Under the pieces are notes generated by a model, which was not told the origin of the DNA, ran no database searches, and saw nothing but the letters and a program-made list of their open reading frames with translations. From NCBI RefSeq assembly GCF_025144145.1, contig NZ_CP083546.1:1008501-1072500 (forward strand): DNA of 64,000 nt, read 5' to 3'. Position numbers and translations under genes: made by a program. This DNA comes from Leisingera sp. M658 (lineage in GTDB: Bacteria > Pseudomonadota > Alphaproteobacteria > Rhodobacterales > Rhodobacteraceae). Below, piece after piece: positions 1-14,766 of the stretch. Numbering within the stretch: the first letter of the stretch is position 1; each line of letters opens with the position of its first letter.

Positions 1-735
1 GCTACAATCCAGGGACTTATGCATTGAAGCATTATGCTTGCCATCTTCTTTCTCGATTGACTGGAAATGGTCACGGTCTGAGCCAGAAAGCGGCTTGAGG
101 ATCCAAGCTACTACATCATTCTCGGTGTTCAGGTAACACTTAGGGGGCGTGGAAGCCCTGTCATCAATTATCTTGAGCGTCGAAGGAGATTCTTGCAGCC
201 TTGGTTGAAGCTTGGTGTTTTCGGCTTCTGAGAAGCTGACGGGATACTTCAGTATTCCGAGAAGCGTACGCCTTGACAGGTTTGCGCCTGCATCTGCGGA
301 GAAGTTCTCAAGGCGAGATAGGATCCGGAGAGTTTGGCCGTTTCCCTCGAACCCCCCAACCTTTTCTCTGTCAGCATTACGCATGCAGTAGTTCAGTGCG
401 ATTTCACCGCCATGACCGAAAGGGGGATGCCCCAAATCATGGGAGCATCCTATCGCTTGAATAGTGCTTCGGTCAGGTAAGCATTTTGTAGCGTCATGTT
501 TAGGATTCGACTTGGCCAATTGTTTGACCAGACCTGAGCCGATTTGTGCGACTTCCAGAGAATGGGTCAATCTGGTTCGGTAAAAGTCACTGTCTCCCAG
601 GTTCAGAATCTGTGTCTTCCCTTGCAACCTACGAAATGATGCAGAGTGAATTACCCGGGCATAGTCAATGTCGCCCGCATCTCGAGCATCCTCTTGTTGA
701 GCATCCCACGGCTCTCTTCGATCTAACCAAGTCAT
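1..735 (-). CDS. dgt: dGTPase-like HD-domain triphosphohydrolase (3' end cut by window edge)
   Basis: Reading the minus strand from the ATG at 735 gives 245 uninterrupted codons to the window edge. The product has the order of conserved elements of dGTP triphosphohydrolases: an N-terminal FRRLQGKTQIL stretch (about residues 34-44), RTRLTHSLEVAQIG around residues 53-66, and the HD metal motif CSHDLGHPPFGHGGE at about 97-111 (His58, His99 and Asp100 are likely metal ligands). The family hydrolyses dGTP to deoxyguanosine and triphosphate. The gene follows the glycosylase gene in the same orientation after a 141-base gap, so it is probably the last gene of the cassette or a close follower. dGTPases are also known as nucleotide-depleting anti-phage proteins, which fits this setting, but a housekeeping role is possible. 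The C-terminus is not visible. Confidence 0.85.
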   Translation of the reverse strand, partial: MTWLDRREPWDAQQEDARDAGDIDYARVIHSASFRRLQGKTQILNLGDSDFYRTRLTHSLEVAQIGSGLVKQLAKSNPKHDATKCLPDRSTIQAIGCSHDLGHPPFGHGGEIALNYCMRNADREKVGGFEGNGQTLRILSRLENFSADAGANLSRRTLLGILKYPVSFSEAENTKLQPRLQESPSTLKIIDDRASTPPKCYLNTENDVVAWILKPLSGSDRDHFQSIEKEDGKHNASMHKSLDCS

Positions 736-876
736 GCTAACTGCTCATCCTTGTAGTAATTTATTTTATGGCGAAATAACTTGTCTATCGCCGAGATTGC
801 CGCGCGCTCGGATGGTAGAAGATTAGTAGCGCTGCTTCGAGGCTTCTTGAGACACGTTTGTGTCGCAGGATAATGT

Positions 877-1539
877 TCAAATCGCAAAAGATAGCTGGCG
901 AGACCCTTTCAGGGATTCAACCTGCCAAATCCACCCATCAAACTCGCGCCGAGAAACAGACAATAAGTCGGCGGCATAACAAAACACGTGCTTCAAGAAG
1001 CCATAGTCATCAGCATCAACGCCGACGCGCTTAGCGAATGTGCGGATGTGACGGTCTACCGCAATCGACTCGATGCCAATAAGGCATGCCAAGTAGTCAA
1101 CCGTTTTTGGACCTACGCCATTCACCTTTTGAAAGGCCGCTCCAAACTCGCCGGTCTTGTATTTTTTCTTGAGGTCTTCGACGTCTTGAACGCCTTCGTC
1201 ATACAGAAAGGCAACGATCCGTTCGAAGCGAGCGATTTTTTGGTGATGGCTCCACTGAAGGAAGGCACCTGTTTCACCATCGTTAACAATCCCGATAAGC
1301 GCGGAAATTGTATCGGCTTGCGGATGCTGGTTCAGAATGTTTGTTACTCTGGGCCGAACAACCGTAGAGTAGCGTAGTCCCGCCTGAAGAGCGGTGTCTG
1401 CCAATACTGCCCCCATATGGTTGCAAACCATGCGCTTCGTCAGGCGGGCTTCCGTTAAGCCTTGGTTGCTGGCAAAGTCAGCAACCTTCCTCGCAGCCGT
1501 TAGCACTGCAAGGGGATCATGTTCACGTGAACGCATCAT
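877..1539 (-). CDS. OGG-like helix-hairpin-helix DNA glycosylase/lyase
   Basis: A 220-residue protein starting at an ATG that shares its A with the TGA stop of the QueC-like gene (TGATG). The frame stays open further upstream to 1626, but that would overlap QueC by 88 bases, so the coupled start is preferred. Residues about 139-171 carry the helix-hairpin-helix and catalytic block VNGVGPKTVDYL followed by IAVDRHIRTF. The lysine (about K145) and aspartate (about D162) match the catalytic pair of bifunctional 8-oxoguanine glycosylases of the OGG/endonuclease III superfamily. There is no FeS cysteine cluster. An OGG-like ancillary protein has been reported alongside QueC-like and TGT-like proteins in type IV CBASS; here it sits with a QueC-like gene but no CD-NTase. 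The function as a base-excising enzyme acting on modified purines is inference. Confidence 0.8.
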   Translation of the reverse strand: MMRSREHDPLAVLTAARKVADFASNQGLTEARLTKRMVCNHMGAVLADTALQAGLRYSTVVRPRVTNILNQHPQADTISALIGIVNDGETGAFLQWSHHQKIARFERIVAFLYDEGVQDVEDLKKKYKTGEFGAAFQKVNGVGPKTVDYLACLIGIESIAVDRHIRTFAKRVGVDADDYGFLKHVFCYAADLLSVSRREFDGWIWQVESLKGSRQLSFAI

Positions 1540-2159
1540 CAAAGTAGCCCCGTTTGCCGGAGTGCTGCTAAACGTTCTACACAATTTGGGCAAGCCCCGC
1601 AGGGTAGTTTGCTCGAGGCTTGACAAGAGAATGTTCGACCTATCGGAACACCCAGTTTTTTAGCATCACGAGCTACATCTGCCTTGGAAGCAAATCTATA
1701 GGGTGAACAAAAGCGGACGGGTCCGACCGCTTCTGTTAAGCCATCAAGTTTGTTCAGAAACTCGGCAGTGCAATCAATTTCCTTAGCGTGGTTGCTATTT
1801 ATGAAACCCGTGTAGACTTCACGGATTCCCAAGGTTTGAGCTCTGGCTGCAGCAGCAGAAAAAAACAACATGGTTCTATAGGGCACATAAAGATCGTCGT
1901 CTTGAACTTCATCCGACCACAAGTTGGGTTCGTCAATCAATCGTGAAGTGGAGCCCCTGAATAGGTCAGAAATTTTGTTTCGTTCGGGAGGCATAACCCC
2001 TTGCGGCATGACCTCATTCAGTCGATTCCATTCGGTTTCTACGCAGTGCTGACCGTAGTCAAAGAACACAGGAACTACAGATTTTCCCTCTGATACAAGC
2101 CGGTATGCAACAGTGGTTGAATCCAGACCACCGGACGCCAACAACAGTGTTCGTGTCAT
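1539..2159 (-). CDS. QueC-like 7-deazaguanine/ATP-dependent amidating enzyme
   Basis: A 206-residue protein. The ATG at 2159 overlaps the TGA of the upstream gene by four bases (ATGA), which decides the start over the longer frame beginning at 2189. The N-terminus has the PP-loop nucleotide-binding motif LASGGLDSTT (SGGLDS at 9-14). The C-terminus has the four zinc-binding cysteines of QueC at about 179, 187, 190 and 193 (CGACPNC). QueC proper converts 7-carboxy-7-deazaguanine to preQ0 for queuosine. No queD, queE or queF lies nearby, and the neighbours are a glycosylase, a kinase-deoxyribosyltransferase fusion and a Met-Gly small protein. A specialised role like that of Cap9 of type IV CBASS or QatC, which act on protein N-termini with a deazaguanine, is therefore plausible. 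That is inference from context. Confidence 0.85.
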   Translation of the reverse strand: MTRTLLLASGGLDSTTVAYRLVSEGKSVVPVFFDYGQHCVETEWNRLNEVMPQGVMPPERNKISDLFRGSTSRLIDEPNLWSDEVQDDDLYVPYRTMLFFSAAAARAQTLGIREVYTGFINSNHAKEIDCTAEFLNKLDGLTEAVGPVRFCSPYRFASKADVARDAKKLGVPIGRTFSCQASSKLPCGACPNCVERLAALRQTGLL

Positions 2160-3496
2160 TTCTTGGTGCTCCGCAACTTCGATAGGCAAGAGAACAAGCC
2201 GTTAAGGCACTCCCCCAATGAATCCGAAAAAACTTCACTACCCGCCATAACCATGGTGTTCTTGTTTTCACATCGTGGGTCGTAGGTGATCACTGGCGTT
2301 CTGGATTTCAGGGCATAGCCGATTTCGACCAATGTGCCTGGGTCCTTCTCCAACGGTACCGCAAATACAACGTCACACTTTTCAAGCAGGGCTAAGTCCT
2401 TATTGTAGACCTCACGCAGCGTATGGATGTCGGCTGGGCGAGCAACTTCGCCGTTTTCTTGAACAGGGCGTCGCACGTTGAAATTATGATATTCCAGAGC
2501 GGACACGGCTTCATCCAATTCATGCTTGTCGATGTAAGAAAAATCGGGTGCAGCAAGATAAATGTTGAATGCTGTTCTTTCGTGCCAGGGCAATGATACT
2601 CCACCCAGCGATCGCACCAACTCCATTGGCAGTTTCAAATCTCTTTGAACGTCTCGACGCAGATCGTCTGGGTATGTCGTTTGAGCGTAGCGTGTAGCAG
2701 CCTGTGCACCGCGCCAGGTTGCTTCGTTAACATCAATGGGTGCCAATGCGGCCATCACAGCAGCGTATACATCACCGACACCAACCGAGTTCACTGTTTC
2801 TCCAAGTGTAGCGTGAATCTCTTCTACACCACCCTCGATTAGATTGATGAGCCTGCTTCCCCCTCGGTTTTCCTTCAACAGAAGGTAGGATGCATTTGCC
2901 GATCTTGCTGCTTCTTCCAGTGGGTCCAAACACTTGCCACCCAACGCATCAAAAAGGTCGGAAGAAGTCGAAATCACTATAGTCTGAATGCGATCCTTGA
3001 AGCACTCCAACTCAAGAAAAGACTCAACTCCGTAGGCAATATCCACAGTGACGTTCGCATTGGATCTTAGGAGTTCACTCAATGTGGATAGTGAGAACTT
3101 GCCTGGGAAAACTACTATCTGTTCAAATTTTTCTAATTGGTTTCCAACTTCCCTCATAGAAACAGATTTTCGCTCACGCAGGAGTTCTTCATATCCTTGG
3201 TCGCCAACTTCTGTGACATCGGAAATAAAAACAACATTGGGAGAGCTGGAGATTTCACCAAGCCAGATAAACTCAGTGCAACCGTGCGCATGAAGGTAAT
3301 CTGTCGCTTCTTGGATAAGATAACTTGGGCAAATACCGGCGACTGCAAATGGAAAGCCGCAAGCCCACAGACCTCGAGCAGCATGAATGATACCCCCAAG
3401 GCGCATCTTGGGTGCAAGACCTTTTCCTAACTGAACGAAGTCAACATAAACTTCGCCTACGACCAAAATCGGGTTTGGGTCAGTGATGTTAGACAA
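2156..3496 (-). CDS. PfkB-type kinase fused to nucleoside 2-deoxyribosyltransferase
   Basis: A 446-residue protein with two domains. Residues about 8-275 look like a PfkB/ribokinase-fold kinase. There is an N-terminal VVGEVYVDF strand, the GG of RLGGIIHAARGLWACG near 34, and a C-terminal anion-hole and catalytic-Asp motif SVGVGDVYAAV, with D242 in the usual GAGD place. Residues about 308-430 look like a nucleoside 2-deoxyribosyltransferase: YLAAPDF, then LEKCDVVFAV, then KDPGTLVEIGYA with the likely nucleophile E391. The start is a TTG at 3496 that overlaps the stop of the upstream small gene; the next in-frame Met falls after the first kinase strand. The combination suggests making, exchanging or phosphorylating an unusual nucleoside. 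I know of no characterised protein with exactly this role, and the substrate is unknown. Confidence 0.8.
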   Translation of the reverse strand: MSNITDPNPILVVGEVYVDFVQLGKGLAPKMRLGGIIHAARGLWACGFPFAVAGICPSYLIQEATDYLHAHGCTEFIWLGEISSSPNVVFISDVTEVGDQGYEELLRERKSVSMREVGNQLEKFEQIVVFPGKFSLSTLSELLRSNANVTVDIAYGVESFLELECFKDRIQTIVISTSSDLFDALGGKCLDPLEEAARSANASYLLLKENRGGSRLINLIEGGVEEIHATLGETVNSVGVGDVYAAVMAALAPIDVNEATWRGAQAATRYAQTTYPDDLRRDVQRDLKLPMELVRSLGGVSLPWHERTAFNIYLAAPDFSYIDKHELDEAVSALEYHNFNVRRPVQENGEVARPADIHTLREVYNKDLALLEKCDVVFAVPLEKDPGTLVEIGYALKSRTPVITYDPRCENKNTMVMAGSEVFSDSLGECLNGLFSCLSKLRSTKK

Positions 3497-3863
3497 TTGT
3501 AAAATCTACGGTCGTTTGAGGGTTGGGGAAAGTGGATGAGCTTTGAACTATACCAACGTAGTTGAAGCCTTCGTTCAAGCATGCGGCAAGATAGTTAAAT
3601 CGAGTCGGTAATGCCCCAACAACTACCCCGTTTGTGTCCAACGCCACGATCCGTTGTGCAACGGTAATCGTTAGCTCGGTTCCCGGTGGCGGAACGGTTC
3701 CGGTGTTCGTGAAGTAGTCACACTGTCCGACCTCTTCTAATTCTGTCGAAAAGGCCATCGCACATTGATCGGTTCCGCTGCTGCCTCCTGATCCACCACT
3801 TCCGTTTGAACTTGAAGGCGATCCTGAATAATCCGAAAATCTACCAGAGCCACTGCTGCCCAT
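3489..3863 (-). CDS. Small Met-Gly protein with Gly/Ser-rich N-terminal tail; possible modification substrate
   Basis: A 124-residue protein with GAGGG about 8 bases before the ATG. It begins MGSSGSGRFSDYSGS, so removal of Met would expose an N-terminal glycine. Residues 2-31 are almost entirely Gly and Ser apart from a short RFSDY patch and read as a flexible tail. Residues 32-124 look like a compact beta-rich domain with short strands such as ELTITVAQRIVALD and a few cysteines. It has no signal peptide. It is the first gene of the coupled cassette: its stop overlaps the TTG start of the kinase fusion. I do not recognise the family. A glycine-tailed small protein directly beside a QueC-like enzyme is what one would expect of a protein that receives an N-terminal deazaguanine, but that is a hypothesis. 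Confidence 0.65.
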   Translation of the reverse strand: MGSSGSGRFSDYSGSPSSSNGSGGSGGSSGTDQCAMAFSTELEEVGQCDYFTNTGTVPPPGTELTITVAQRIVALDTNGVVVGALPTRFNYLAACLNEGFNYVGIVQSSSTFPNPQTTVDFTIV

Positions 3864-3928
3864 AATTGATCCCTCTTAGGGTTGAAGTTAATGAATTTTC
3901 ATCAACCCTAAATGAGTTATCTGTGACG

Positions 3929-4129
3929 TCAATCCAAGAAAACACCGCTCTGATATTGTTTCAGAACCCGTCCTTCGATCGCCATCTTCGGCGAAACGCA
4001 GAAGTGCTTCTCATCAAGTATGTGTTTGATGCAATGCGCAGCATTTTTTAGATTGGGAGCAGTGTTTGGAAACAGGAGCCTCAAACGACGCATGTAGTAG
4101 CCGAAATCGACACACGCTGTAATTGACAT
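3929..4129 (-). CDS. Small ORF coupled to the helicase stop codon
   Basis: A 66-codon frame whose ATG overlaps the helicase stop (TGATG), the typical arrangement for translational coupling. The product is basic, contains four cysteines and a few aromatic residues, and matches nothing I recognise. It ends 65 bases before the Met-Gly gene. It lies in the AT-richer stretch and could equally be a chance frame or a remnant of a gene that once followed the helicase. Confidence 0.3.
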   Translation of the reverse strand: MSITACVDFGYYMRRLRLLFPNTAPNLKNAAHCIKHILDEKHFCVSPKMAIEGRVLKQYQSGVFLD

Positions 4130-6879
4130 CAGGTAGGCTCCATGATCGACGCCTTGCCGATGCTCAGAGTTCCTTCACTCATCCAGTGGATAGCGACGCC
4201 ATATAGAAGTTTTTCGGGCCACTTCCTGCGAACCATGGAGGCATAAGCGTCAATTTGCGGTCGATAGCTCGCAAAGCGTGCGTCAGGATCGGGACAAGGC
4301 CCAGATTTATGGTCGATGATCAACAGCCCGTGCGGTCCCTCGGCAAGGCAATCGAGAATGGCATTGGTTTCCGATCCGTCGGCCGCTTTTTCCTGCAAGG
4401 GTAGTTCGAAGTGGAGCCTGTCATAACCCTGGTCGGTTAGCCATCGGGTCAAGGCCTCCGCTTGGGCGGAAATCTGGGCGATGGCCTTTTCAGGCAAGCC
4501 GGTTGCGGGGGAAATCCGGTCGACCAGATCGGGGCGCTCGGCCAGAACACGGAAAGCCAAGTGCCAGGCAGTGCCGCGTTCGACTGCGCTACTCGTGCGG
4601 GTCTCTGTAACGCCCTCTGCCAGCCGCACAGTTTCGAGGAGCACGTCAGATTCCTGTCCGGGGGCTTTGAGGGTTGAAGGACTGCGGCGCCACGGCGTTC
4701 GCGCACTTTCAGGGATGGTGTGCGGCAGGCCCAAGCGTAGGTGCGCCGCGCTTCCCGACTGCTCAGTTTCCACTGGCTCTTCTGGCAAGCCCTCTGTCAC
4801 CTGCGCCGCAAAGGTCTGTCCGGCGACTGTCAGTGTGTCATCGCCAGGTTCAAACCCTGCACGATCACGCAGCAGGTCAACCATGCGCTCTGCGTGCTCG
4901 CGTGGTTTGGACCGTTCCCGAGGCATTGCGAGGATCAGCCGATCCCGCGTACGTGTCAGCGCGACATAGAGTTTGCGGGCCGCGTCGCGTTCGTCCTCGG
5001 GGCGGCGGGCCTCGGTGAAAGGGACTTGCGATTCCGACGCTGCGAAATCGGGCAGGTAGCTCAATCCAGCATGATCGAGAACATTGTCGAGATCGTGGAA
5101 GGTATCGAAATCGGCCCGCAAGGTGCCCGGGCGCTCGGCAATCTTCTGATCAAGCCCTGCGACAAGGGTGATCGGCCATTCGCGCCCCTTGGCGGCGTGC
5201 CAGGTGCAGATCTCGATCCCGGAAGCAGACCAGCCATCCGGGTCGGGATGGCGATCCCATTCCTTGGCAGATTGATGCGCAATCCAGCCGAGGAAGACTT
5301 GTACCCCAGCACCGTGGAAGCCTGCGGGGGCGCGCAGGTCCTGTGCCATGGTGTCAAACTCCTGTGCTTCGGCCTCAAGGCGTGCCAGATCGGCCAGAGC
5401 TTGTGCCGGTTGCGCCAATCCGGCAGACCAATCGCGTAGTTTGGTCGTGCGCAGGACTTCCGCGAGGGTGTCGGCCACGGTGCGTGTTGCAATGCTGTCA
5501 TTCAGGGTGTGCAGAGAAACGATTGAAACATGTGTGTTCAGCACCCCGTCAACGGCGTTGCGCAACGCGTCCTCCAGTGGCAGGCGCGGTGGGCCAAGGG
5601 TCAACCATGTCAAGGCTGCGTGGGTGTCGTCCGGATCCGCTGCCAACGCCAGCGCGGCGCGAGCGACACGCATTGCGGGCGCTGTCAGCCAACCGTTCTG
5701 CTGGATGCGCACGGGTAGGTCATGGGCTTCGAGGGCGGCGGCAGCTGCGCTGGCCTTGGAGTGGGTATAGGTCAAAACGGCGACGTCGCTTGGTTTGGCT
5801 GGGCGCATCTCCTTGCTTGCCTTGTCATAGACCGGCGTTCCTGCATCCAGGATGTCAGCCACCCGATTGGCGATGCAAGCGGCCGTGGTGTCCTTGCGCC
5901 CACCAGGCAAGTTCAGCACCTCGAGTGCTGGCTTTTCTGTCGCCTCGCGTTGCGGGCTTAGCGGGTCGTACTGGTCGAAGAGCGTCGGGCCAAGTGCATT
6001 GACCATCTCCATGATCCGCGCATCGGAGCGCCAGTTTCGGTCAAGCGGCGTGACCGCATCCGGATTCGCAGCTTGCAAGGCCTCTGACAGCCGTGGGTCA
6101 GCACCTTGAAAACCCATGATGGATTGTTTGATGTCGCCCACGATCAGCGCTCGTTTTGCCCCCTGCGCAAGCCGCCAGAGCAGCGCGAACTGCACCGGGT
6201 TGGTGTCCTGGAATTCGTCGATCACAACACAGTCGATTTCGCCCAGAACGGCATTCAGAATCTCGGGGCGGTTGCGAAGTAGGGTTTCGGTCTCCGCGAT
6301 CATGTCAGCATAATCGATTAGCCCGGACTGGCGCTTGGCAGTCTGGTAGGCCTCCAGAACCTGCTGAGCGCCAGTGACCAACGCGGTCAGATGCGCGCGG
6401 GCATCGGCCAAGGGGCCAGGATGGCGAGGCAGTGCGCTGGCGGCATCCATGACGGCCTGGGCGAGGGCGTCATAGCCTTCTGGTGTGGGGCTGCCGCGTT
6501 TCGTTAACCTGAGGTTGCGCAGTTTCTGCCATACCATCCAATCCTTTTCGAGGACACCAGGTCGGTTGGCCTTGCGCAGGATCTGGTGGTTTCTTGCGAA
6601 CTCATCGCGGACAGACTTCTTTGAAGCAAAATGTGGAGCGAGGCTATCCGGAAAGACCTCCAATAACCCATGTAACGCTCGGCGCAATGCCGCGGTCAGG
6701 GCATCGCCATCCGCCTCGACCGGGCCGTAGCCCTCGGCCAGCGCATCCAGAGCCGGCGCCAGGATGTCAAGCGACTGCCCGCGCGCACCGAGCCCGCGGA
6801 TCAGGTCGACCGTTCGCAGAACATCAGCACGAAACCCATCTTCGGCGGTGGTCTGCGTCGCGTGAGACCACGCATAACT
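4129..6879 (-). pseudogene. UvrD/AddA-like helicase with C-terminal PD-(D/E)XK nuclease, 5'-truncated
   Basis: The frame is open from the stop at 4129 back to a TGA at 6880-6882. The only possible early start is a TTG at 6687, giving 852 residues. It contains helicase motif II (VVIDEFQDTNPVQ, about 154-166), motif III (GDIKQSIMGFQGADP), the NWRSDARI stretch, the CTWHAAKGREWP motif V region and motif VI (LYVALTRTRDRL). A RecB-type nuclease domain follows, with RGTAWHLAF and then AILDCLA...LLIIDHKSG. Walker A (motif I), expected about 200 residues upstream of motif II, is absent because homology to an IS3 transposase begins at about 6876. The protein cannot be an active helicase as it stands, though the nuclease end is complete. 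It was probably part of a two-gene AddAB-like or defence-island helicase-nuclease. Base composition is GC-rich, unlike the cassette after it. Confidence 0.75.
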
Positions 6880-6977
6880 TCACGACAATCTCTTCAGGCT
6901 TGGGCCTCTTGGTCGCCATCTATGGTCCTCCGTTTCCTAATCATAGGGGCGGACCACTTCTTTGGGGGAGGCTCACG
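6876..6977 (-). mobile_element. 5' end of an IS3-family element (orfA start) fused to the helicase
   Basis: On the minus strand an ATG at 6919 encodes MATKRPKPEEIVVKL, the usual N-terminus of this IS3-group OrfA and nearly identical to the start of the orfA at 32785. It is preceded by a leader with CCCCCAAAGAAGTGGTCC, like the leader of the second copy (CCCCCACTGAAGTGGTCC). Homology stops abruptly after codon 15, where the helicase frame begins, so most of the element and the helicase N-terminus have been deleted together. Confidence 0.75.
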
Positions 6978-7143
6978 ATGCCACGCCAAGCCGCACCCTC
7001 ACTCCGCGGCGAACATCAAAGAACCTTCACCAGAGCTGCCAGCCTCCGCCGCTCCTTCAACAACAATGTTTTATAGAATCCGGCCAACGCGGACGGCCCT
7101 TTCCTGCCGTCTGATCATTAAGCGAAACGCTGCGGTGCGGCTC

Positions 7144-7354
7144 GTCAAACCTGCTGTTGGCACATAGCGCAGCATTTCTTCAATGGGGCGGTCCACGTCA
7201 CTGGAGCCATCCGGGCTGCTGTCGAGAAGGAGGCGCGGCGGGCTTGCCGTGCCAGCTCAAAGAGTCCGGCATCATCGCGGCGGATTAAAATACCGGCGGC
7301 ATCGGGCTGATCAGCCCGGCACAATGCACGGGCAAGCCGGGTGACAGCTGACAT
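7144..7354 (-). pseudogene. Remnant coupled to the deacetylase fragment
   Basis: A 69-codon frame starting at an ATG that overlaps the deacetylase stop (TGATG). The first 40 residues (MSAVTRLARALCRADQP...) look like real coding sequence. After a likely one-base slip near 7230, coding character seems to continue in another frame (DVDRPIEEMLRYVP). I do not recognise the family. It looks like a decayed gene of the former deacetylase operon. The stretch from 6978 to 7143 holds nothing I can name. Confidence 0.35.
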
Positions 7355-7740
7355 CAGAACAGAACCGGCTTTGTGTAGTAAGGCAGCTCTTCCACTCGGA
7401 CGGCGTTCGGATCTTTTGCGGCCTCGGCGCGGACATGAGCTGCGATTTCATGCATCGGCGCAAACCAGACATCGCCGCGCTCCAGCACTTTCTCCAGCCA
7501 GGTCTCCACCTGCCGTCAGCGCGCCAGACGCCCGGTCAAGAAAGGATGCCAGATCGCCAGCCACAACCCGCCGGCCTCGAATTGGGCTTCGAATCCTTCC
7601 CAGAAACCCTCAAGGCCGCGGCTGGGTCCGGCCGCCGGCATCATGTAGCCGATCTCATCGTATTGGGCGAAGGGCGGCCAGTCGTCGGTGCCCCAATGGA
7701 CCGGAAGCTCAACCAGCGACCCGGCGATGGAGTTCAGCAT
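7354..7740 (-). pseudogene. C-terminal fragment of a polysaccharide-deacetylase-like protein with an in-frame stop
   Basis: Minus-strand translation from about 7740 reads ELPVHWGTDDWPPF, then WLAIWHPFLTGRLAR, then a TGA, then continues in the same frame with RQVETWLEKVLERGD, VWFAPMHEIAAHV and YYTKPVLF before a natural stop. The WHPF and FAP-containing segments are typical of the C-terminal half of NodB-type polysaccharide deacetylases of this group. The TGA (about 7515-7517) replaces what is probably a Trp codon. The N-terminal catalytic half is missing because the fragment abuts the end of the CobW gene. Confidence 0.6.
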
Positions 7741-7753
7741 AACCCGCAAAAAC

Positions 7754-8689
7754 CTAGGGGTGGGGGTGGGCGGCCAGGAATTGCTCCATATGGGTTTGCA
7801 GGAAACCGTCCTGTGCCAGCCCGTCTTCACCAATGGCAACCAGGCGGGTTTCCGGCGCACCGCGCCACAGGCCGTCCTTGTGGAATTCAATCCGCGAACC
7901 GACCTTTTGGAACACAATCCGGGTTTCCGGAAAATCCGCACAAAAAAGCACGCCTTTGGACCGGAACACGGAATTTGGCAGAGAGCCGAGTGCGGATTTG
8001 AAGCTGGCATAGCTGAAAGGCTCTTGCGCCGACCAGATTTGCGAGCGGAACCCTGCCGCAGGTCGCGATTGTGGAAGGACAGCGTTCTCCGGGTCATGCC
8101 GGCCAGTGTCCAAAAGAAACTGCACCGGCACTTGCCCGATGCTGGCCTCAAAGGCTGGCAGATTCGGGAACAGCCATCGCGCGCGGAAATCCGCAACCTG
8201 CTGCGGCTGCACCAGATCCGTCTTGGTCAGCACCGCGATATCGGCGGCCTCAATCTGCGCCTGCACCAGCTGCTGGCAGTTGTTCGACAGCACATCGGTG
8301 TTTTTGACATCCAGCAGAGTTACCACCGCATCCAAACGGGCATAGTTCCGCAGCTGGGGATAGCCGAAGACAGAAGCGATACGGCCGGGCTGAGAAACCC
8401 CGCTGGCCTCGATCAGCAGATACTCAGGCGAGTTGCCTGAGCGGAACAGGGCCTGGAGCTGCGCCACCATATCACTTTGGATCGAGCAGCAAACGCAGCC
8501 GTTCGACAGCTCCATCACCTCGCGCTCGCGCTTCAGGATCAGGTCGGCGTCAATATTGACCGCGCCGAAATCATTGACCAGCACGGTGATGTTCAGCCCG
8601 TGATCCCCCTGCAGCAGGGTGTTGATCAGAGTGGTTTTGCCAGAGCCGAGGAAGCCTGCGACGATGGTAACCGGAACGCGCGTGTCCAT
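7754..8689 (-). CDS. CobW/P47K-family GTPase (G3E metallochaperone)
   Basis: A full-length 311-residue protein. It has the P-loop GFLGSGKTT (12-20), the metal-binding CxCC motif of the COG0523 group (GCVCC, 64-68), the EASG switch region and a guanine-specificity TKTD motif near 155. The C-terminal CobW domain ends in FLAAHPHP. Proteins of this group are GTP-dependent metal chaperones. The ATG overlaps the stop of the upstream amidohydrolase by one base, so both are translated from one message. The neighbour is a metal-dependent amidohydrolase, so delivery of zinc or another metal to that enzyme is a reasonable guess. No Zur box was recognised. Confidence 0.85.
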   Translation of the reverse strand: MDTRVPVTIVAGFLGSGKTTLINTLLQGDHGLNITVLVNDFGAVNIDADLILKREREVMELSNGCVCCSIQSDMVAQLQALFRSGNSPEYLLIEASGVSQPGRIASVFGYPQLRNYARLDAVVTLLDVKNTDVLSNNCQQLVQAQIEAADIAVLTKTDLVQPQQVADFRARWLFPNLPAFEASIGQVPVQFLLDTGRHDPENAVLPQSRPAAGFRSQIWSAQEPFSYASFKSALGSLPNSVFRSKGVLFCADFPETRIVFQKVGSRIEFHKDGLWRGAPETRLVAIGEDGLAQDGFLQTHMEQFLAAHPHP

Positions 8690-10437
8690 CAGATGTCCAC
8701 CGGAGTGAAATCAGGCACCGGAGAGGTGATGCGGCTTTCAAAATCTGTGCCTTGCATCCAGCCCTTTGGGTCATGCACAATCTCGCCATCCACCATTGTC
8801 AGATGCACCTGCGATTTGTGCCAGTTGCCCTTGGCGTCAATCTCCAACAGGTTGCGGTCCAGGACGATCAGATCGGCGGTCTTGCCTGCGGTGATCGAAC
8901 CGGACACATCCTCGCAGCCCATCGCATAGGCGCCGTTGAGGGTCAGCATCCGGATCGCCTCTTGCGGGGTGATCGACCGGCCCAGTTTGCCCTCCATCTC
9001 CCCGCGCGGGTTTTCGCGGGTGACAAGCGTTTCGAACCCGAACCAAGGGTCGATGCTGCTGACCGGCCAATCGGTGCCCATTACGGTAACTCCGCCCGCA
9101 TCCAGCACGCCGCGCACGTTATAGGCCTCCTGCAGCCGCTCCCCGAAAGACGAGCGCGCACCGATGGTGAACTCCGACGGGAACCATCCCACCGGAGAGA
9201 ACTCGGCAATCACGTCCAGCTCAGCAAAACGGGCCAGATTGCCCTCGTCCAGCAGGGTGGAATGGGCGCATTGGTGGCGCATGCCACCCGAACCATTGCG
9301 GCGGCGGCATTCAGCTACTGCATCCAGGAAAATGTCCGAGGCGCCGTCGCCGGTACAATGGGCGATTACCCGGATCCGCTTGCGGTCCATCTCTGCCACC
9401 ATGTCGTAGATATGTTCGGGCGTCAGGTTCAGCGAGCCCTGCCAGGTCTTTTCGTTCGGCCATGGGGTGATCAAGTAAGAGGTGCGCGGCTCGGCAGTGC
9501 CGTCAAAGTGGAACTTCACGGCATTCGCATTCAGACGCTTGGAGCGGTAGTAATGCCGCTCGCCCGCCAGCAGCTCCCAGCGGCGGCGCACCGGGAAGAT
9601 GTCGTCTTGCCAGCTGATCGCGGCTTCGACCCGCACCGGCAGCTCACCCTCCAGATCAATGGCGCGCAGTGCGTCCAGCCGTCGTTCACAGACATGGACG
9701 TATTTGGTGGCCACCACACCGCGGGCGGACTGGAACCGGGCGCCCTCGCGGTAGGCACGGGTCAGAGCGTGCATCGGCGGCGGCGGCATCGCCGCCATGA
9801 TCAGCGCATAGGCCCCATCAACCAGAATGCCGTCCGGCTCGCCGGTCAGCGGGTCGCGCACGATGTAGCCGTTGTTGGGATCGACTGTGTCCTTGCTGAC
9901 GCCTGCCAGCTCCAGCGCCTTTGAGTTGGCCATGCAGCTGCCCCACATCCGGTCCATGATCGCAACCGGCCGGTCGGGGATAAAACTGTCGAGCCAGTCG
10001 CGCCCTGGCTTCAGCCCCGCCTTGCGGAAGGCGTAGTGGACGAAATGCTTGCCGAAAATCCACTCGCGGTCCGGGTTTTCGGTTGCATAGCGCAGGGTCG
10101 CCTCGCGCACCTGATCCGGGGAGGGCGTCTCCAGTCCCACGTCCAGATAGTCGGAGTATTTCGGCCCCAGAGCCAGATCCGGATGGGTGTGCATATCGTA
10201 CAGCCCCGGCATCGCAAAGGCGCCGTTCAGATCATGCACATGGGTGTAATCGGCAATCAGCGGCTCTATCTCGGCATTGCTGCCAACCGCCATGAACCGT
10301 CCGTGTTTGATTGCCACCGCCTCGGCCCAGGGCTGATCCTGATCAACGGTGTAAATCCGCCCGTTCCGCAGCACCATATCCGCCGCAGGCAGCCCTTCAG
10401 GTGTGTTGGTCGACCGGATTCCGACGCTCGAAACCAT
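8689..10437 (-). CDS. YtcJ-like metal-dependent amidohydrolase
   Basis: A 582-residue protein of the amidohydrolase superfamily, YtcJ type. Domains run from a small beta-sandwich (MVLRNGRIYTVD), through the first metal motif MHTHPDLALG and the central barrel with HCTGDGASDIFLDAV and AHSTLLDE, to GTDWPVSSIDPW and a C-terminal sandwich ending in KTADLIVLDRN. It probably hydrolyses an amide or N-acyl bond of a small cytosolic compound. The frame is open to 10473, but the ATG at 10437 has AGGA upstream and a normal N-terminus. It is divergent from the LysR gene. Its upstream region carries a 16-bp element shared exactly with the ABC transporter promoter, which suggests co-regulation and that the transporter brings in its substrate. 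The substrate is unknown. Confidence 0.8.
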   Translation of the reverse strand: MVSSVGIRSTNTPEGLPAADMVLRNGRIYTVDQDQPWAEAVAIKHGRFMAVGSNAEIEPLIADYTHVHDLNGAFAMPGLYDMHTHPDLALGPKYSDYLDVGLETPSPDQVREATLRYATENPDREWIFGKHFVHYAFRKAGLKPGRDWLDSFIPDRPVAIMDRMWGSCMANSKALELAGVSKDTVDPNNGYIVRDPLTGEPDGILVDGAYALIMAAMPPPPMHALTRAYREGARFQSARGVVATKYVHVCERRLDALRAIDLEGELPVRVEAAISWQDDIFPVRRRWELLAGERHYYRSKRLNANAVKFHFDGTAEPRTSYLITPWPNEKTWQGSLNLTPEHIYDMVAEMDRKRIRVIAHCTGDGASDIFLDAVAECRRRNGSGGMRHQCAHSTLLDEGNLARFAELDVIAEFSPVGWFPSEFTIGARSSFGERLQEAYNVRGVLDAGGVTVMGTDWPVSSIDPWFGFETLVTRENPRGEMEGKLGRSITPQEAIRMLTLNGAYAMGCEDVSGSITAGKTADLIVLDRNLLEIDAKGNWHKSQVHLTMVDGEIVHDPKGWMQGTDFESRITSPVPDFTPVDI

Positions 10438-10521
10438 GCTAATTGTCCTTTTCCTGTCCTGGGCCCGCACCACACCGGCATGCGGCTGCCCTGTCCGAAC
10501 ACAGTAAGAACGCAGGATTTC

Positions 10522-10537
10522 TCACGTCAAATGAAAG
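10522..10537 (-). promoter_or_regulatory. Promoter element upstream of the amidohydrolase, copy 1
   Basis: On the minus strand this reads CTTTCATTTGACGTGA, identical over 16 bases to 11591-11606 on the plus strand, and it sits about 85 bases before the amidohydrolase ATG. TTGACG may be a -35 hexamer, with TTACTG 17 bases later. The flanking GGAATTTC/GGAAATTA is also similar, so an activator or repressor site overlapping the -35 is likely. The LysR protein encoded between the two copies is the obvious candidate. Confidence 0.55.
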
Positions 10538-10606
10538 AAATTCCGCTGCATTTAAAAATTTTTCTCATGTAACATGCCCGAAACCCTGCTTAGAGAGGTC
10601 CCGAAC

Positions 10607-11545
10607 ATGGGTAGCATGGCCGAAAGAGACGCAAGCGATGCGCGCCGGGTCTACCCGTCGATGACCGCGCTCAGGATGCTGGAGGCGGTGTCGCGGCTGG
10701 GCAGCCTGCACAAGGCGTCTGAGGCGATGTTTGTGACCCCCAGCGCGGTTTCGCATCAGCTGCGAAATCTGGAACAAATGCTGGGTGTCAAACTGATCAG
10801 CCGTGCGGGCCGCAAAGTGGAGCTGACCTCAGCCGGCAACCGCTATGTGCAGGACATCCGCAAGGCGCTGGAGATCGTCGAACGCGCCAACGCTCCACTG
10901 GGCGGCAGCGAACCCTTCGGACCCTTGCGGATCAACTGTGCGTCAGGTCTCGGCAGCTATTGGCTCGCGTACCACATCACCGAGTTCCTGGACCTCTTTC
11001 CCAACATAGACCTGGAAATCACCAACGAGACCGATCGCAGCGATATCCTCAACGATCAATCTGATTTCTCGATCATCTACGGCGACGGCGCCTGGCCGGG
11101 CAAGCACGTCCAGCACCTGTTCACCCCACGCGCTTTCCCAGTCTGTTCGCCCGCCTTCCTTGAGCGCCACGGCCGCATCCGTACGCCCGAGGATCTGGTG
11201 AAACTGCCGCTACTGCACCACCGCAATCAAAGCGATTGGGTGGTCTGGCTGTCTGCCGCCAGCAAGAAGAGCTTTGAGTTGAGCAAGGGCATCATGTTCT
11301 CGGACGTGACCCAAAATATCAACGCAGCTATTGCCGGAGCCGGGATAGCCATCGGGGACGACATCCTGGGCCGCCACGCGCTGAGCGAGGGTAAGCTGGT
11401 ACGCCTGTTTGACACCGATATTCGCGGCCCCCACGCCTATTACATCGTTACCCAGAAAGAGCGGATGGAACGCCGGGTTTGCCAGCTGGCGATCGACTGG
11501 CTGTCGCGCTGGTTCCAGGAATACACACTGCAAACGCAGAGTTAG
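10607..11545 (+). CDS. LysR-family transcriptional regulator (GcvA-like)
   Basis: The protein has an N-terminal winged-helix domain (SMTALRMLEAVSRLGS, then AVSHQLRNLEQMLG) and a C-terminal substrate-binding domain with NINAAIAGAGIAIGD, as in the GcvA subgroup. An upstream ATG at 10574 is in frame, but the ATG at 10607 has GAGAGG eight bases before it and is preferred. The gene is divergent from the amidohydrolase and directly upstream of the ABC operon. Together with the repeated promoter element this makes it the likely local regulator of both. Confidence 0.85.
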   Translation: MGSMAERDASDARRVYPSMTALRMLEAVSRLGSLHKASEAMFVTPSAVSHQLRNLEQMLGVKLISRAGRKVELTSAGNRYVQDIRKALEIVERANAPLGGSEPFGPLRINCASGLGSYWLAYHITEFLDLFPNIDLEITNETDRSDILNDQSDFSIIYGDGAWPGKHVQHLFTPRAFPVCSPAFLERHGRIRTPEDLVKLPLLHHRNQSDWVVWLSAASKKSFELSKGIMFSDVTQNINAAIAGAGIAIGDDILGRHALSEGKLVRLFDTDIRGPHAYYIVTQKERMERRVCQLAIDWLSRWFQEYTLQTQS

Positions 11546-11590
11546 CCATACGCAAATTCATGAGAAAATCTCAATTTAACACGGAAATTA

Positions 11591-11606
11591 CTTTCATTTG
11601 ACGTGA
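11591..11606 (+). promoter_or_regulatory. Promoter element upstream of the ABC operon, copy 2
   Basis: CTTTCATTTGACGTGA, an exact inverted copy of 10522-10537 in the same orientation relative to its downstream gene, 57 bases before the ATPase ATG. TTGACG plus AATCCT with a 17-base spacer would be the promoter. Confidence 0.55.
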
Positions 11607-11663
11607 AAAAAACTGACTGCAATCCTTTCGCCAATGCTCAGGGCCTTACCGGGGCCAGGAACG

Positions 11664-12746
11664 ATGGGGAGCCAGTCAGTGTCACAAATCGCGGCCAGCA
11701 GCATCTGCAAGTCCTATGGCAACTTCAAGGCTCTGCATGATGTCAGCATGGAGATCAACAAAGGCGAGTTCCTGACCTTTCTCGGCCCCTCCGGTTCCGG
11801 CAAGACCACTTTTCTGATGATTCTTGCAGGCTTTACCGAACAAACGTCCGGCCAATTGATGAAAGACGGCCGGGATATCAGCGCAATGGTAGCAGAAGAG
11901 CGCAATTTCGGCATGGTGTTCCAGGGTTACGCGCTGTTTCCGCATATGACCGTCTGGCAGAACGTCGACTACCCCCTGCGGGTGCGCAAGATGGGCAGCG
12001 CCGAGCGCAAACAGAAAGTCGGGCGGATCATCGAGACGGTGGGCCTCGCAGAACATGCACACAAAAAACCTTCGCAACTGTCAGGCGGCCAGCAACAGCG
12101 GGTGGCGCTGGCGCGCTCGCTGGTGTTCCAGCCGGATGTGCTGCTGCTGGATGAGCCGCTCTCGGCGCTCGACCGCAACCTGCGCGAACAGATGCAAAGC
12201 GAGCTGAAGCGGGTGCATGAGGAGACCGGCACCACCTTTGTCTTTGTCACCCACGACCAGGGCGAGGCGCTGGCGATGTCCGACAAGATCGCCATTTTCA
12301 ATAGGGGCCGGCTGATGCAGCTGGACTCGCCTGACCGGATCTACAACGCGCCGGACTCGCGCTTCGTCGCGGAATTCCTGGGCCAGATCAACATTTTCCC
12401 GGTGGCGAACCCCGGCATGGACGGTAGCCTCTTGCGCGGCAACCTGGACGGCACGACGCTTTCGGCCGCCAATCCGGGAAACCGCGTGAACGGCACCGTC
12501 AACATCGCCGTGCGGCCTGAACACATGACACTCAGCTCCGAGCGCCCCGCGGATCAGGCCAATGTGCTGTCCGCCAAGGTGATCCAGACCACCTATCAGG
12601 GCTCGCACAGCGACCTGGTGCTGCAGACGCCGCAAGGCCACAGCATCAGCGCCTCCACCCACAACGCCAGTGGCGTGCTGCCCCGCGTTGGCAGCGATCT
12701 GTGGGTCGGCTGGTCGCCCGAAAACACCATCGTGATTGCCGACTAA
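11664..12746 (+). CDS. ABC transporter ATPase, PotA-like
   Basis: About 360 residues. Walker A is GPSGSGKTT (41-49), followed by the Q-loop VFQGYALFPH, the signature LSGGQQQRVALARSL and Walker B VLLLDEPLSALD, with the switch His in FVTHDQGEA. The C-terminal 120 residues form a TOBE-type regulatory domain (NIAVRPEHM). This is the spermidine/putrescine/Fe(III) (CUT1-like) importer class. The ATG at 11664 is taken over 11634 because it gives the normal N-terminus. First gene of a five-gene operon with the binding protein, two permeases and an FAD dehydrogenase. Confidence 0.9.
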   Translation: MGSQSVSQIAASSICKSYGNFKALHDVSMEINKGEFLTFLGPSGSGKTTFLMILAGFTEQTSGQLMKDGRDISAMVAEERNFGMVFQGYALFPHMTVWQNVDYPLRVRKMGSAERKQKVGRIIETVGLAEHAHKKPSQLSGGQQQRVALARSLVFQPDVLLLDEPLSALDRNLREQMQSELKRVHEETGTTFVFVTHDQGEALAMSDKIAIFNRGRLMQLDSPDRIYNAPDSRFVAEFLGQINIFPVANPGMDGSLLRGNLDGTTLSAANPGNRVNGTVNIAVRPEHMTLSSERPADQANVLSAKVIQTTYQGSHSDLVLQTPQGHSISASTHNASGVLPRVGSDLWVGWSPENTIVIAD

Positions 12747-12812
12747 CAAGATCCGGGCCGCACCGCCCCGGGCGGCGGATGGACCCGGCAGAAAATGACC
12801 AGGGAGGATACC

Positions 12813-13916
12813 ATGAACAACTTTCAACGAGACTGCTGCGAGCTATTGGCTGAGCGCTTCCGCAACGGCAAACTGGATCGCCGCGGCTTTCTGACCGGGC
12901 TGGTGGCACTGGGTGCCGCCACTGTAGCCGCGCCTGGGGCCCGTGCTGCGGGCCAGGAACTGGTGGTGGTCAACTGGGGCGGCGACGCGATTGACGCGTA
13001 CTCCGCAGCCTTTGCCGAAGCCTATGAAGCCGCCACCGGCAACAAGTTGAAAATCGACGGCTCCGGCCCGCTCGAAGGCTCGATGAAGACTCAGTTCGAA
13101 AGCAATTCGGTCCGCTGGGACGTCTGCGACGCGGAACCCTATTCCGCGATCCGCCTGGGCCGCGAAGGCATGATGGAGAAAATTGATTACTCCATTGTCG
13201 ATCGCAGCAAGATCGAACCGGGCTTTGACGGTGAATTCTACGTTCCTTCCTATTTCTACAGCAACGTCATCACCTATGACGCCGCCCGCTTCGGCGATGA
13301 CGCGCCCAGCACCTGGGGCGATTTCTGGAACATGGAGAAGTACCCGGGCAAGCGCACCCTCTACAAATGGATGACCGGAGTGCTGGAGGCCGCGTTGCTG
13401 GCCGATGGCGTTGCACCTGCCGAGCTTTATCCGCTGGATGTGGACCGCGCGCTGGCCAAGATCGAGGTGCTGAAGCCGCATATCGTCAGCTTCTGGTCCT
13501 CCGGCGCCGAAAGTCAGCAGCTGTTGCGCGACGGCGAGGCCTCGATGGGCCTGCTGTGGCACACCCGCGCGAACCTAACCAAACAGGACACCGAGGGCGA
13601 GGTCGACTGGACCTTTGATCAGGGTCTGGTGTCGCCCTCTGGCTGGACTGTGATCAAGGGCAACCCGGCCGGGCTCAAGGCTGCAATGGAGTTCATCGCC
13701 CTGGCCCAAAATCCGGACAATCAGGTGACCCTGCTGAACGAGCTGGGCAACGGCCCAGCCAACCCTGCCGCCCATGCGCTGGTGTCGGAAGAGATGAAGC
13801 CTGTGGATGCCAGTTCGAAGGAGAACCTGGAGCGTCAGATCGTGCTGCAGGCGGAATGGTATGCCGACCACTACGGCACCGCACTGGATAAATACCTGGC
13901 CTTGGTCAGCAGCTAA
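12813..13916 (+). CDS. Periplasmic binding protein, PotD-like, with twin-arginine-type leader
   Basis: A 367-residue extracellular solute-binding protein. The leader is long, with RRGFLTGLVALGAATVAAP and an ARA cleavage site, so Tat export is likely. The mature part starts ELVVVNWGGDAIDAY, typical of family 1 polyamine-type binding proteins, and has WDVCDAEPYSAIRLG and SGWTVIKGNP segments. The ATG at 12813 follows GGGAGGA; an upstream in-frame ATG at 12795 is less likely. The ligand cannot be read from the sequence; a nitrogenous compound processed by the nearby amidohydrolase and dehydrogenase would fit. Confidence 0.88.
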   Translation: MNNFQRDCCELLAERFRNGKLDRRGFLTGLVALGAATVAAPGARAAGQELVVVNWGGDAIDAYSAAFAEAYEAATGNKLKIDGSGPLEGSMKTQFESNSVRWDVCDAEPYSAIRLGREGMMEKIDYSIVDRSKIEPGFDGEFYVPSYFYSNVITYDAARFGDDAPSTWGDFWNMEKYPGKRTLYKWMTGVLEAALLADGVAPAELYPLDVDRALAKIEVLKPHIVSFWSSGAESQQLLRDGEASMGLLWHTRANLTKQDTEGEVDWTFDQGLVSPSGWTVIKGNPAGLKAAMEFIALAQNPDNQVTLLNELGNGPANPAAHALVSEEMKPVDASSKENLERQIVLQAEWYADHYGTALDKYLALVSS

Positions 13917-13938
13917 GCACTCGGGGAGGGGCAGCAGG

Positions 13939-14766
13939 ATGGCCGCACGGCTCAATATACACACCATAGCCATGTGGCTGCTGCCCGCCCTGTTCCTGGC
14001 GGTCTATCTCGCGCCGCTCTTGGGCGTCTTCGGCTGGTCTGTCTCTCGGCCCGAGCCGGGCGCGGAGAACTATGTGCGGATGCTGACCGACGCCGATGCG
14101 CTCAACATAATGCTGCGCACCGCGCGGGTCTGCATTCTGGTCACCGGCATCTCGGTTCTGCTTGCCTATCTTATGGCCTACCACTGGGTCTTCGGCTCGC
14201 CCGCCCGCAAGCTTTTCATGGAGCTTTGCATCTTTATCCCCTTCTGGATCTCAGTACTGATCCGCGCCTTCGGCTGGGTGGTGATCCTGCGCAACAAGGG
14301 CATTCTGAATGAAACATTGCTGTCCATTGGCGCCATTACTGAGCCGCTCACACTGGTCAGGACCGAGCTTTCGGTGATCCTGGGCATGGTGCATTTCCTT
14401 GTGCCCTTCGCGGTTTTCCCGATTGCCTCGGTGATGCGCCAGATTGACTCACGGGTGCTCCTCGCCTCGCGCGGCATGGGCGCTAATCCCGCCTTCACCT
14501 TCTGGAACGTGTTCCTGCCGCTCACCATTCCCGGCGTCCTCGCCTCGGTGATCATCGTCTTTGTCTTTGCCCTTGGCTTCTTCATCACCCCGGCGATCCT
14601 CGGTGGCGGCAAAATCGTGATGATTGCGGAATACATCTACATCCAGATGTTCCAGACATCGAACTGGGGCTTTGGCGCCGCGCTCAGCATCGGGGTGCTG
14701 GCCGTGGTCGCGGCAATGGCGGGCCTGCTGTTCAGGGTCATCCGTCCGGAAAGGCTGGTCAAATGA
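13939..14766 (+). CDS. ABC transporter permease, PotB-like
   Basis: 275 residues with about six hydrophobic segments, beginning LNIHTIAMWLLPALFLAVY. The cytoplasmic EAA loop region is SRGMGANPAFTFWNVFLPLTIP. GGGGAGGGG precedes the ATG at 13939; the longer frame from 13807 only overlaps the binding protein gene. It overlaps the next permease by four bases (ATGA). Confidence 0.88.
   Translation: MAARLNIHTIAMWLLPALFLAVYLAPLLGVFGWSVSRPEPGAENYVRMLTDADALNIMLRTARVCILVTGISVLLAYLMAYHWVFGSPARKLFMELCIFIPFWISVLIRAFGWVVILRNKGILNETLLSIGAITEPLTLVRTELSVILGMVHFLVPFAVFPIASVMRQIDSRVLLASRGMGANPAFTFWNVFLPLTIPGVLASVIIVFVFALGFFITPAILGGGKIVMIAEYIYIQMFQTSNWGFGAALSIGVLAVVAAMAGLLFRVIRPERLVK

Follow-up and report, generated by a model that had tools for sequence, protein, structure and literature searches.

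What could a QueC-like enzyme be doing in an operon whose other genes encode a small glycine-tailed protein, a fusion of two nucleoside- and sugar-enzyme domains, and a DNA glycosylase? The question is raised by one end of a 64,000-nucleotide stretch of Leisingera sp. M658 (contig NZ_CP083546.1, positions 1,008,501 to 1,072,500; hereafter the window). Four genes lie there on the minus strand: the small protein gene (3489..3863, 124 amino acids, ATG start), whose product is the proposed substrate of the QueC-like enzyme; a fusion of a PfkB/ribokinase-fold domain and a nucleoside 2-deoxyribosyltransferase (2156..3496, 446 amino acids, TTG start); the QueC-like enzyme itself (1539..2159, 206 amino acids; PF06508, E 9.4e-32); and an HhH-GPD glycosylase of the OGG/endonuclease III-like kind (877..1539, 220 amino acids, ATG start). 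A 2025 report describes conjugation of a nucleobase to a protein in one defence system (PMC11996544), and the same has been proposed for a second, QatB/QatC (PMC13279940). We lean slightly towards the view that the operon is a mobile anti-phage operon of this QueC-conjugation kind, where both the chemistry and the defence role are what we infer.

The four-gene core is a real mobile unit. Searching the named genomes with a profile of six QueC-like proteins returned 59 loci. Of these, 56 belong to the window type, with QueC-like enzymes of 60-76% identity, and not all are independent: L022 and L066 come from the same genome, and L047, L049 and L050 form a near-identical set. The other three (L070-L072) are distant (28-30% identity), and none of the other operon genes were seen there. 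The QueC-like and glycosylase genes are present in 56/56 window-type loci, the glycosylase of L024 being divided over two frames, and the small gene is found in 52 of the 53 loci whose contig reaches its place (in L022, L038 and L066 the contig ends too soon). Core order is kept in 55 of the 56 as far as contigs allow; the exception, L060, is rearranged and has lost the small gene. In this Bradyrhizobium sacchari locus the frame preceding the QueC gene (L060:7459-8004) gives a dGTPase-fragment match and a weak fusion match. Carriers are mostly alpha-, beta- and gammaproteobacteria, metagenome-assembled genomes (MAGs) included, among them Mesorhizobium, Rhizobium, Cupriavidus, Halomonas, Marinobacter, Pectobacterium, Photobacterium and Rhodobacterales. 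The fusion is rare, occurring in 5/295 genomes of the window's family, the window's own among the five. Window-type operons are also carried by plasmids (in the plasmid collection the Proteus records have a length of 4 Mb) and by 13 contigs from the viral catalogue. A search of the viral set with the small protein gave 13 contigs, of which 12 are QueC-positive too; the thirteenth, L194, stops right after the small gene. The small gene of L090, in the same viral set, is divergent. A distant-mode search of E. coli with the window-type Proteus operon gave no match.

An earlier sequence-only reading of this DNA had proposed a candidate defence cassette of five genes, a dGTPase among them, and had asked whether it recurs in other genomes. 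The four-gene core does recur, at 56 other named loci, and its mobility is seen in plasmid carriage, viral-catalogue contigs and integrase-adjacent copies; the dGTPase is a frequent neighbour, within 8 kb in 11/49 carriers, and not a fixed member. The layout was read correctly. The TTG start of the fusion falls within the end of the small gene, ATTGTCTAA; the QueC-like gene overlaps the fusion end by ATGA; the glycosylase gene (ATG 1539) overlaps the QueC-like gene by TGATG, its mechanical open reading frame (ORF) opening at TTG 1626; and a 141-base gap separates the glycosylase from the dGTPase. The locus is also, as had been noted, more AT-rich than its surroundings, with a GC content of 0.47-0.50 over positions 1-4000 against 0.56-0.64 over 4001-14000 (1-kb windows).

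The small protein consists of a disordered tail (residues 1-30) bearing the MGSSGSGRFSDYSG motif, followed by a predicted HIRAN-like domain (residues 31-124). The tail is near-invariant, MGS[ST]GSGxFSDYxG: Gly2 is found in 48/48 distinct starts from 54 loci, as are S6, D11 and Y12, and positions 16-20 are highly variable. All four glycine codons (GGA, GGC, GGT and GGG) are used for Gly2, L067 being excluded from this codon count, and the start codons are 46 ATG, one GTG and one TTG. To judge from these alignments, the N-terminal glycine tail is under selection at the protein level. The conserved Met-Gly start and the presence of the small protein in homologous loci, both anticipated earlier, are thus found. 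In the AlphaFold2 model the tail is disordered and the folded part has a pLDDT of about 93. Its best Foldseek match is the HIRAN domain of HLTF (6kcs_A; E 5.2e-4, probability 1.00), and of the four matches with E < 0.001 three are to HLTF HIRAN chains and one is to lp_0118 of Lactobacillus plantarum; the structure alignment of the small protein omitted L004, L005, L008 and L010. A PDB sequence search with the small protein gave no convincing match. For the body, the predicted fold resembles that of a HIRAN DNA-binding domain. The HIRAN domain of HLTF binds 3' DNA ends. More generally, the accessible part of PMC11706625 presents HIRAN domains as predicted DNA binders in the damage response.

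The QueC-like enzyme is distinct from the housekeeping QueC of queuosine synthesis. SGGLDS, YGQ(x)5E, R95, D129-C130 and C(x)7CxxCxxC are present in 57/57 QueC-like sequences. The canonical motifs, as given in the accessible text of PMC13329287, are YxQxHxxE, VPxRN, YPDC and C(x)8CxxCxxC, and the window enzyme departs from them with YGQHCVETE, PYRT, EIDC and C(x)7CxxCxxC. In its Q(x)5E and C(x)7C spacings it differs from the canonical motifs and agrees with Cap9 (PDB alignment, 9nto_B). The enzyme scores 94.5 bits against TIGR00364, below the cut-off of 150.3. The window genome has a second QueC, 31% identical, beside queD and queE (G000:C1:2418044-2419808), and the operon gene is not linked to queD or queE; the housekeeping role thus falls to that second copy and not to the operon gene. 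On motifs and model scores, by which the separation was judged, the refuting outcome named earlier, a firm grouping with housekeeping QueC, is not seen.

PF05014 (deoxyribosyltransferase) matches 38/38 fusion members and PF00294 (PfkB) 13/38, the window's own not among the latter; the ribokinase family tops the Foldseek matches of the fusion. The window member keeps G239xGD242 and DPGTLxE391, which we take to be catalytic motifs, and GxGD is found in 55/57 and DPGTLxE in 56/57 fusion rows, contig-cut rows counted. K174 and D191 of the glycosylase (numbering from TTG 1626), presumably catalytic as well, are present in 57/57. As far as residues can tell, the operon enzymes keep the expected catalytic motifs. 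Deoxyribosyltransferase-like proteins are effectors in retron defence, which makes an effector role possible for the fusion. Against the PADLOC OGG model of type IV CBASS (cyclic-oligonucleotide-based antiphage signalling system), PDLC00910, the glycosylase gives a weak match (E 3.8e-6), and a PDB sequence search with the glycosylase gave no convincing match. That model was tried as a CBASS marker; it matches in 4/398 genomes, the three neighbourhoods looked at among these (L200-L202) hold integrase-like, small and OGG-like genes and are not CBASS, and the comparison was dropped. The integrase-like/small/OGG-like trio is in itself a recurrent arrangement, without CBASS genes nearby. A further variation is seen on a contig catalogued as viral (L135:6365-10143), where one QueC is flanked by two small proteins and two fusions; the second fusion has neither GxGD nor GTxxE and looks like a pseudo-enzyme, and a PDC-S15 candidate defence gene lies downstream.

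Part of this arrangement has been described before. The accessible text of Libby et al. 2026 (PMC13329287) defines a QueC Cluster 4, in which the QueC-like gene comes straight after a PfkB-deoxyribosyltransferase gene, with the motifs CH(x)5CxxCxGCxK and YGQ(x)6E, and reads it as likely purine salvage. The pairing of these two genes, part of the set that the sequence-only reading had presented as new, was already published. We found a sister group of the window-type operon that we take for Cluster 4, going by its neighbouring gene and by the Cys motif, seen in L012 and L013; these two loci have YGQ(x)5E where the available Cluster 4 text gives YGQ(x)6E. In 24 plasmid records the QueC has at least 41% identity to the Moraxella copy. 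Sister-group carriers on plasmids include haloarchaea, Synechocystis and Pseudomonas aeruginosa, and at 97.5-100% identity, the range sought, the sister operon occurs in 10/5426 E. coli genomes. The window-type and sister QueC profiles are homologous (probability 97.9), and so do the two small-protein profiles match (probability 97.0). A related small protein immediately precedes the fusion in 25/26 sister loci, nine of the 25 having built the search profile and the 26th locus, L134, starting at a contig end. Ogg-HhH glycosylases make up 17/92 sister-flank ORFs, which were hand-picked, mostly from 150 and partly by annotation. Neither a small protein nor a glycosylase is mentioned in the Cluster 4 text available from PMC13329287; sister loci have both. 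Among the PADLOC matches listed for sister flanks are one TGT and one TRIP13, neither traced to an ORF. On two Rhodobacterales plasmids, a Vut-family gene with a queuosine-salvage annotation lies beside the sister operon (L077:8308-8847 and L079:8272-8847).

The genomic context suggests defence. A dGTPase, an accessory gene that is often present, lies within 8 kb of the operon in 11/49 carrier genomes, where 0.23 would be expected by chance, in four layouts; one of the 11 is truncated and one is the window itself. In the window, the 5' part of the dGTPase gene occupies 1..735 on the minus strand and crosses the window edge; the whole gene is a 451-amino-acid open frame in the genome (G000:C1:1007880-1009235, equal to L174:7880-9235). 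The whole protein passes TIGR01353, and its 245-residue in-window part scores 329.1 bits against NF041026, with a cut-off of 400. Just beyond the window edge, transposase-like and TniB-like ATPase genes (ORF reading; L174:4608-7465) adjoin the dGTPase. GajA of Gabija adjoins the Cupriavidus operon L008 (E 2.3e-30, nearly the whole chain). Beside the sister operon of E. coli KMi029 (L203) is a nuclease that matches GajA in its first 110 residues only (E 4.5e-13) and adjoins a UvrD/PcrA-like helicase; the genes that follow encode a glycosylase, a methylase and an anti-phage dGTPase, with three integrase-like genes and ssb alongside. Proximity to defence genes, about which the earlier reading had asked, is seen at some loci. 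Further sister-operon neighbours are a Thoeris-like TIR gene, multiubiquitin/ThiF genes and restriction enzymes. Three integrase-like genes in a row beside ssb are found near the sister operon of two E. coli chromosomes (L203:525-5347 and L204:2985-7807); the KMi029 copy is 100% identical to a Citrobacter plasmid copy, and in L204 the methylase gene is interrupted by an insertion sequence.

The dGTPase count with its expectation is used in place of a PADLOC count of defence islands, which was set aside. PADLOC gave 246 families from 130 flanking ORFs (192 listed, 34/56 loci), 110 families from 103 ORFs of ten other stretches of carrier genomes, and 2 from 43 window ORFs. These totals were not used because many models respond to a single type I restriction gene and the families listed are at most 25 per scan.

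How the parts might work together can be pictured as follows. Methionine would be removed from the small protein, exposing Gly2, and the QueC-like enzyme, using ATP, would join a guanine-like nucleobase to it. The HIRAN-like domain could then bring the tagged protein to DNA ends arising in phage replication. The fusion and the glycosylase may release or re-attach the base at the deoxynucleoside and DNA level, or the fusion may be the effector, and the accessory dGTPase could contribute dGTP depletion and deoxyguanosine. We draw this QueC-conjugation reading from the core order, the invariance of Gly2, the HIRAN-like fold, the Cap9-like spacing and the sister small protein, together with the dGTPase and GajA neighbours and the precedents of QatB/QatC (PMC13279940) and Cap9 (PMC11996544), as far as their accessible text goes.

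Several observations weigh against it. The small-gene starts behind the Gly2 count were picked by their Met-Gly motif, and the sister small protein mostly starts Met-Ser-Gly (other starts are Met-Gly-Gly, Met-Thr-Gly, Met-Cys-Gly and Met-Ser-Ser), so that Gly2 is not invariant family-wide. The likeness to HIRAN is distant (12% identity, TM about 0.5), and Pfam HIRAN matches none of 44 small-protein members. In the QueC-like enzyme, Glu127 replaces the Tyr of QueC's YPDC. Counted among the dGTPase cases are the window, chosen when its dGTPase was already in sight, and related loci of a common layout. PADLOC totals, inflated by redundant models and without clear separation between flanks and controls, cannot alone establish a defence island, and the control ORFs, too, held type I restriction genes.

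A further difficulty concerns the base to be attached, and meets the QueC-conjugation reading in its simple form. Canonical queC, called by PF06508 at E < 1e-50 in 51 carriers, is present in 32 and was not found in 19, which are 17 distinct carriers (G704 equals G208 and G708 equals G010). In 15 of the 19 no QueD-family match was found either. A nine-sequence QueE profile, which replaced a single-sequence search found too narrow, detected no full-length QueE in the 17 distinct carriers, the best match being partial (5.8e-12); as a control it recovered QueE in six of eight other carriers with queC, two MAGs being missed (QueE of the window genome was also found, but belongs to the profile). Some of the 17 are MAGs; G051, G208, G010 and G034 are 99-100% complete. 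At the catalytic positions compared, the QueC-like enzymes of 15 aligned carriers that have no canonical queC do not differ from those of 32 that have it, save for one His-to-Arg at position 124. With 17 distinct carriers showing neither canonical queC nor full-length QueE, host-made 7-carboxy-7-deazaguanine is unlikely as the universal substrate, and the earlier proposal that the attached group is a host-made deazaguanine is not supported; no other finding weighs more against that reading. The attached base would then be either something other than host-made 7-carboxy-7-deazaguanine or a base supplied from elsewhere, for example by a phage.

The latter possibility leads to an alternative in which the phage base is the trigger: a modified purine, set free from phage DNA or nucleotides by the glycosylase and the fusion, would be attached by the QueC-like enzyme to the HIRAN-like protein, which would thereby be activated. 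The 17 distinct carriers that show no host pathway speak for it, as do the unchanged catalytic residues of the 15 aligned pathway-less carriers, the presence of two possible base-freeing activities in the operon, and the more distant QueC relatives on contigs catalogued as viral (L093-L129). Defence would however be restricted to phages with such bases, and the glycosylase is not known to act on deazaguanine; we hold this alternative to be unlikely. In a module of the type IV CBASS or Qat sort, with host 7-carboxy-7-deazaguanine as the base and a new protein as its substrate partner, the Cap9-like spacing of two motifs, the glycine tail and the canonical queC of 32/51 carriers would find a place, but about a third of carriers show no pathway and there is no CD-NTase, TGT, QatA or QatD among the neighbours read or annotated, and we regard such a module as decidedly unlikely. 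Bolder, and improbable in our estimate, is the idea that the operon builds a protein-linked deoxynucleotide: a guanine-like base, fixed by the QueC-like enzyme on the HIRAN-like N-terminus, would receive deoxyribose via the deoxyribosyltransferase, drawn from deoxyguanosine that the dGTPase can release, and a 5' phosphate via the kinase. Brought by the HIRAN-like domain to the 3' DNA ends of replicating phage, the bulky nucleotide would block them, while the glycosylase would remove it from host DNA. We know of no protein-borne chain terminator in immunity.

Under purine salvage, as Cluster 4 is read in the accessible text of PMC13329287, a purine nucleoside would be recycled by the fusion together with the QueC-like enzyme. 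The fusion domains are indeed those of nucleoside and sugar enzymes, and two sister loci have the Vut/queuosine-precursor transporter gene beside them, but salvage leaves unexplained the conserved tail, the HIRAN-like body and the glycosylase, as well as the rarity (5/295 family genomes), the mobility and the dGTPase and GajA neighbours, which makes it very doubtful. Least probable of all is a selfish addiction module, in which the modified small protein would be toxic to the host once the glycosylase is lost: plasmid carriage and integrase neighbours would suit it, but no antitoxin-like gene was noticed, and strict four-gene co-occurrence is atypical for such modules.

If the QueC-conjugation reading is true, a third architecture, a mobile one with a HIRAN-like partner and nucleoside enzymes, would make the chemistry look general, and Cluster 4 would gain a role other than salvage. 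Which base is attached becomes a sharp and testable question, given that in about a third of carriers no host pathway to 7-carboxy-7-deazaguanine is detectable. A literature search, which covered few subscription papers, found the operon undescribed beyond the Cluster 4 paragraph in the accessible text of PMC13329287. A Cap9-fragment search gave 150 plasmid records; among the matches listed, annotations were queC-like or none, and no Cap9 was picked out.

How does the operon compare with known systems? The anti-phage dGTPase (NF041026) differs in that the dGTPase here is a variable accessory and not core. The body of the small protein resembles HIRAN of HLTF in predicted fold, but the protein stands alone, has a long Gly/Ser tail and shares 12% identity. 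With Qat, the operon shares a partner with a disordered MG tail beside a QueC-like enzyme, whereas QatC has about 400 residues with extensions and remodelled motifs, against 206 in the window enzyme, and the folded part of QatB is helical, its tail starting MGTS (PMC13279940, accessible text); QatC models score 13.3 and 21 bits against the window enzyme. The likeness to type IV CBASS lies in the Cap9 motif spacings Y/FxQ(x)5E and C(x)7CxxCxxC, both present in the window enzyme (motif text of PMC13329287), and in a glycine-ended partner proposed as substrate (accessible text of PMC11996544). The partner in the window is HIRAN-like by prediction and not a CD-NTase, and the deoxyribosyltransferase-kinase fusion takes the place of the TGT-like protein. 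None of CD-NTase, TGT, QatA or QatD is among the operon neighbours read as ORFs or annotated, no domain search of every neighbour having been made, which agrees with what the sequence-only reading had seen nearby. Cluster 4 has the QueC-like gene right after the PfkB-deoxyribosyltransferase gene, as in the window operon; the window enzyme is told apart by CQ(x)6CxxCxxC in place of CH(x)5CxxCxGCxK, with Q180 following C179 in 57/57 sequences.

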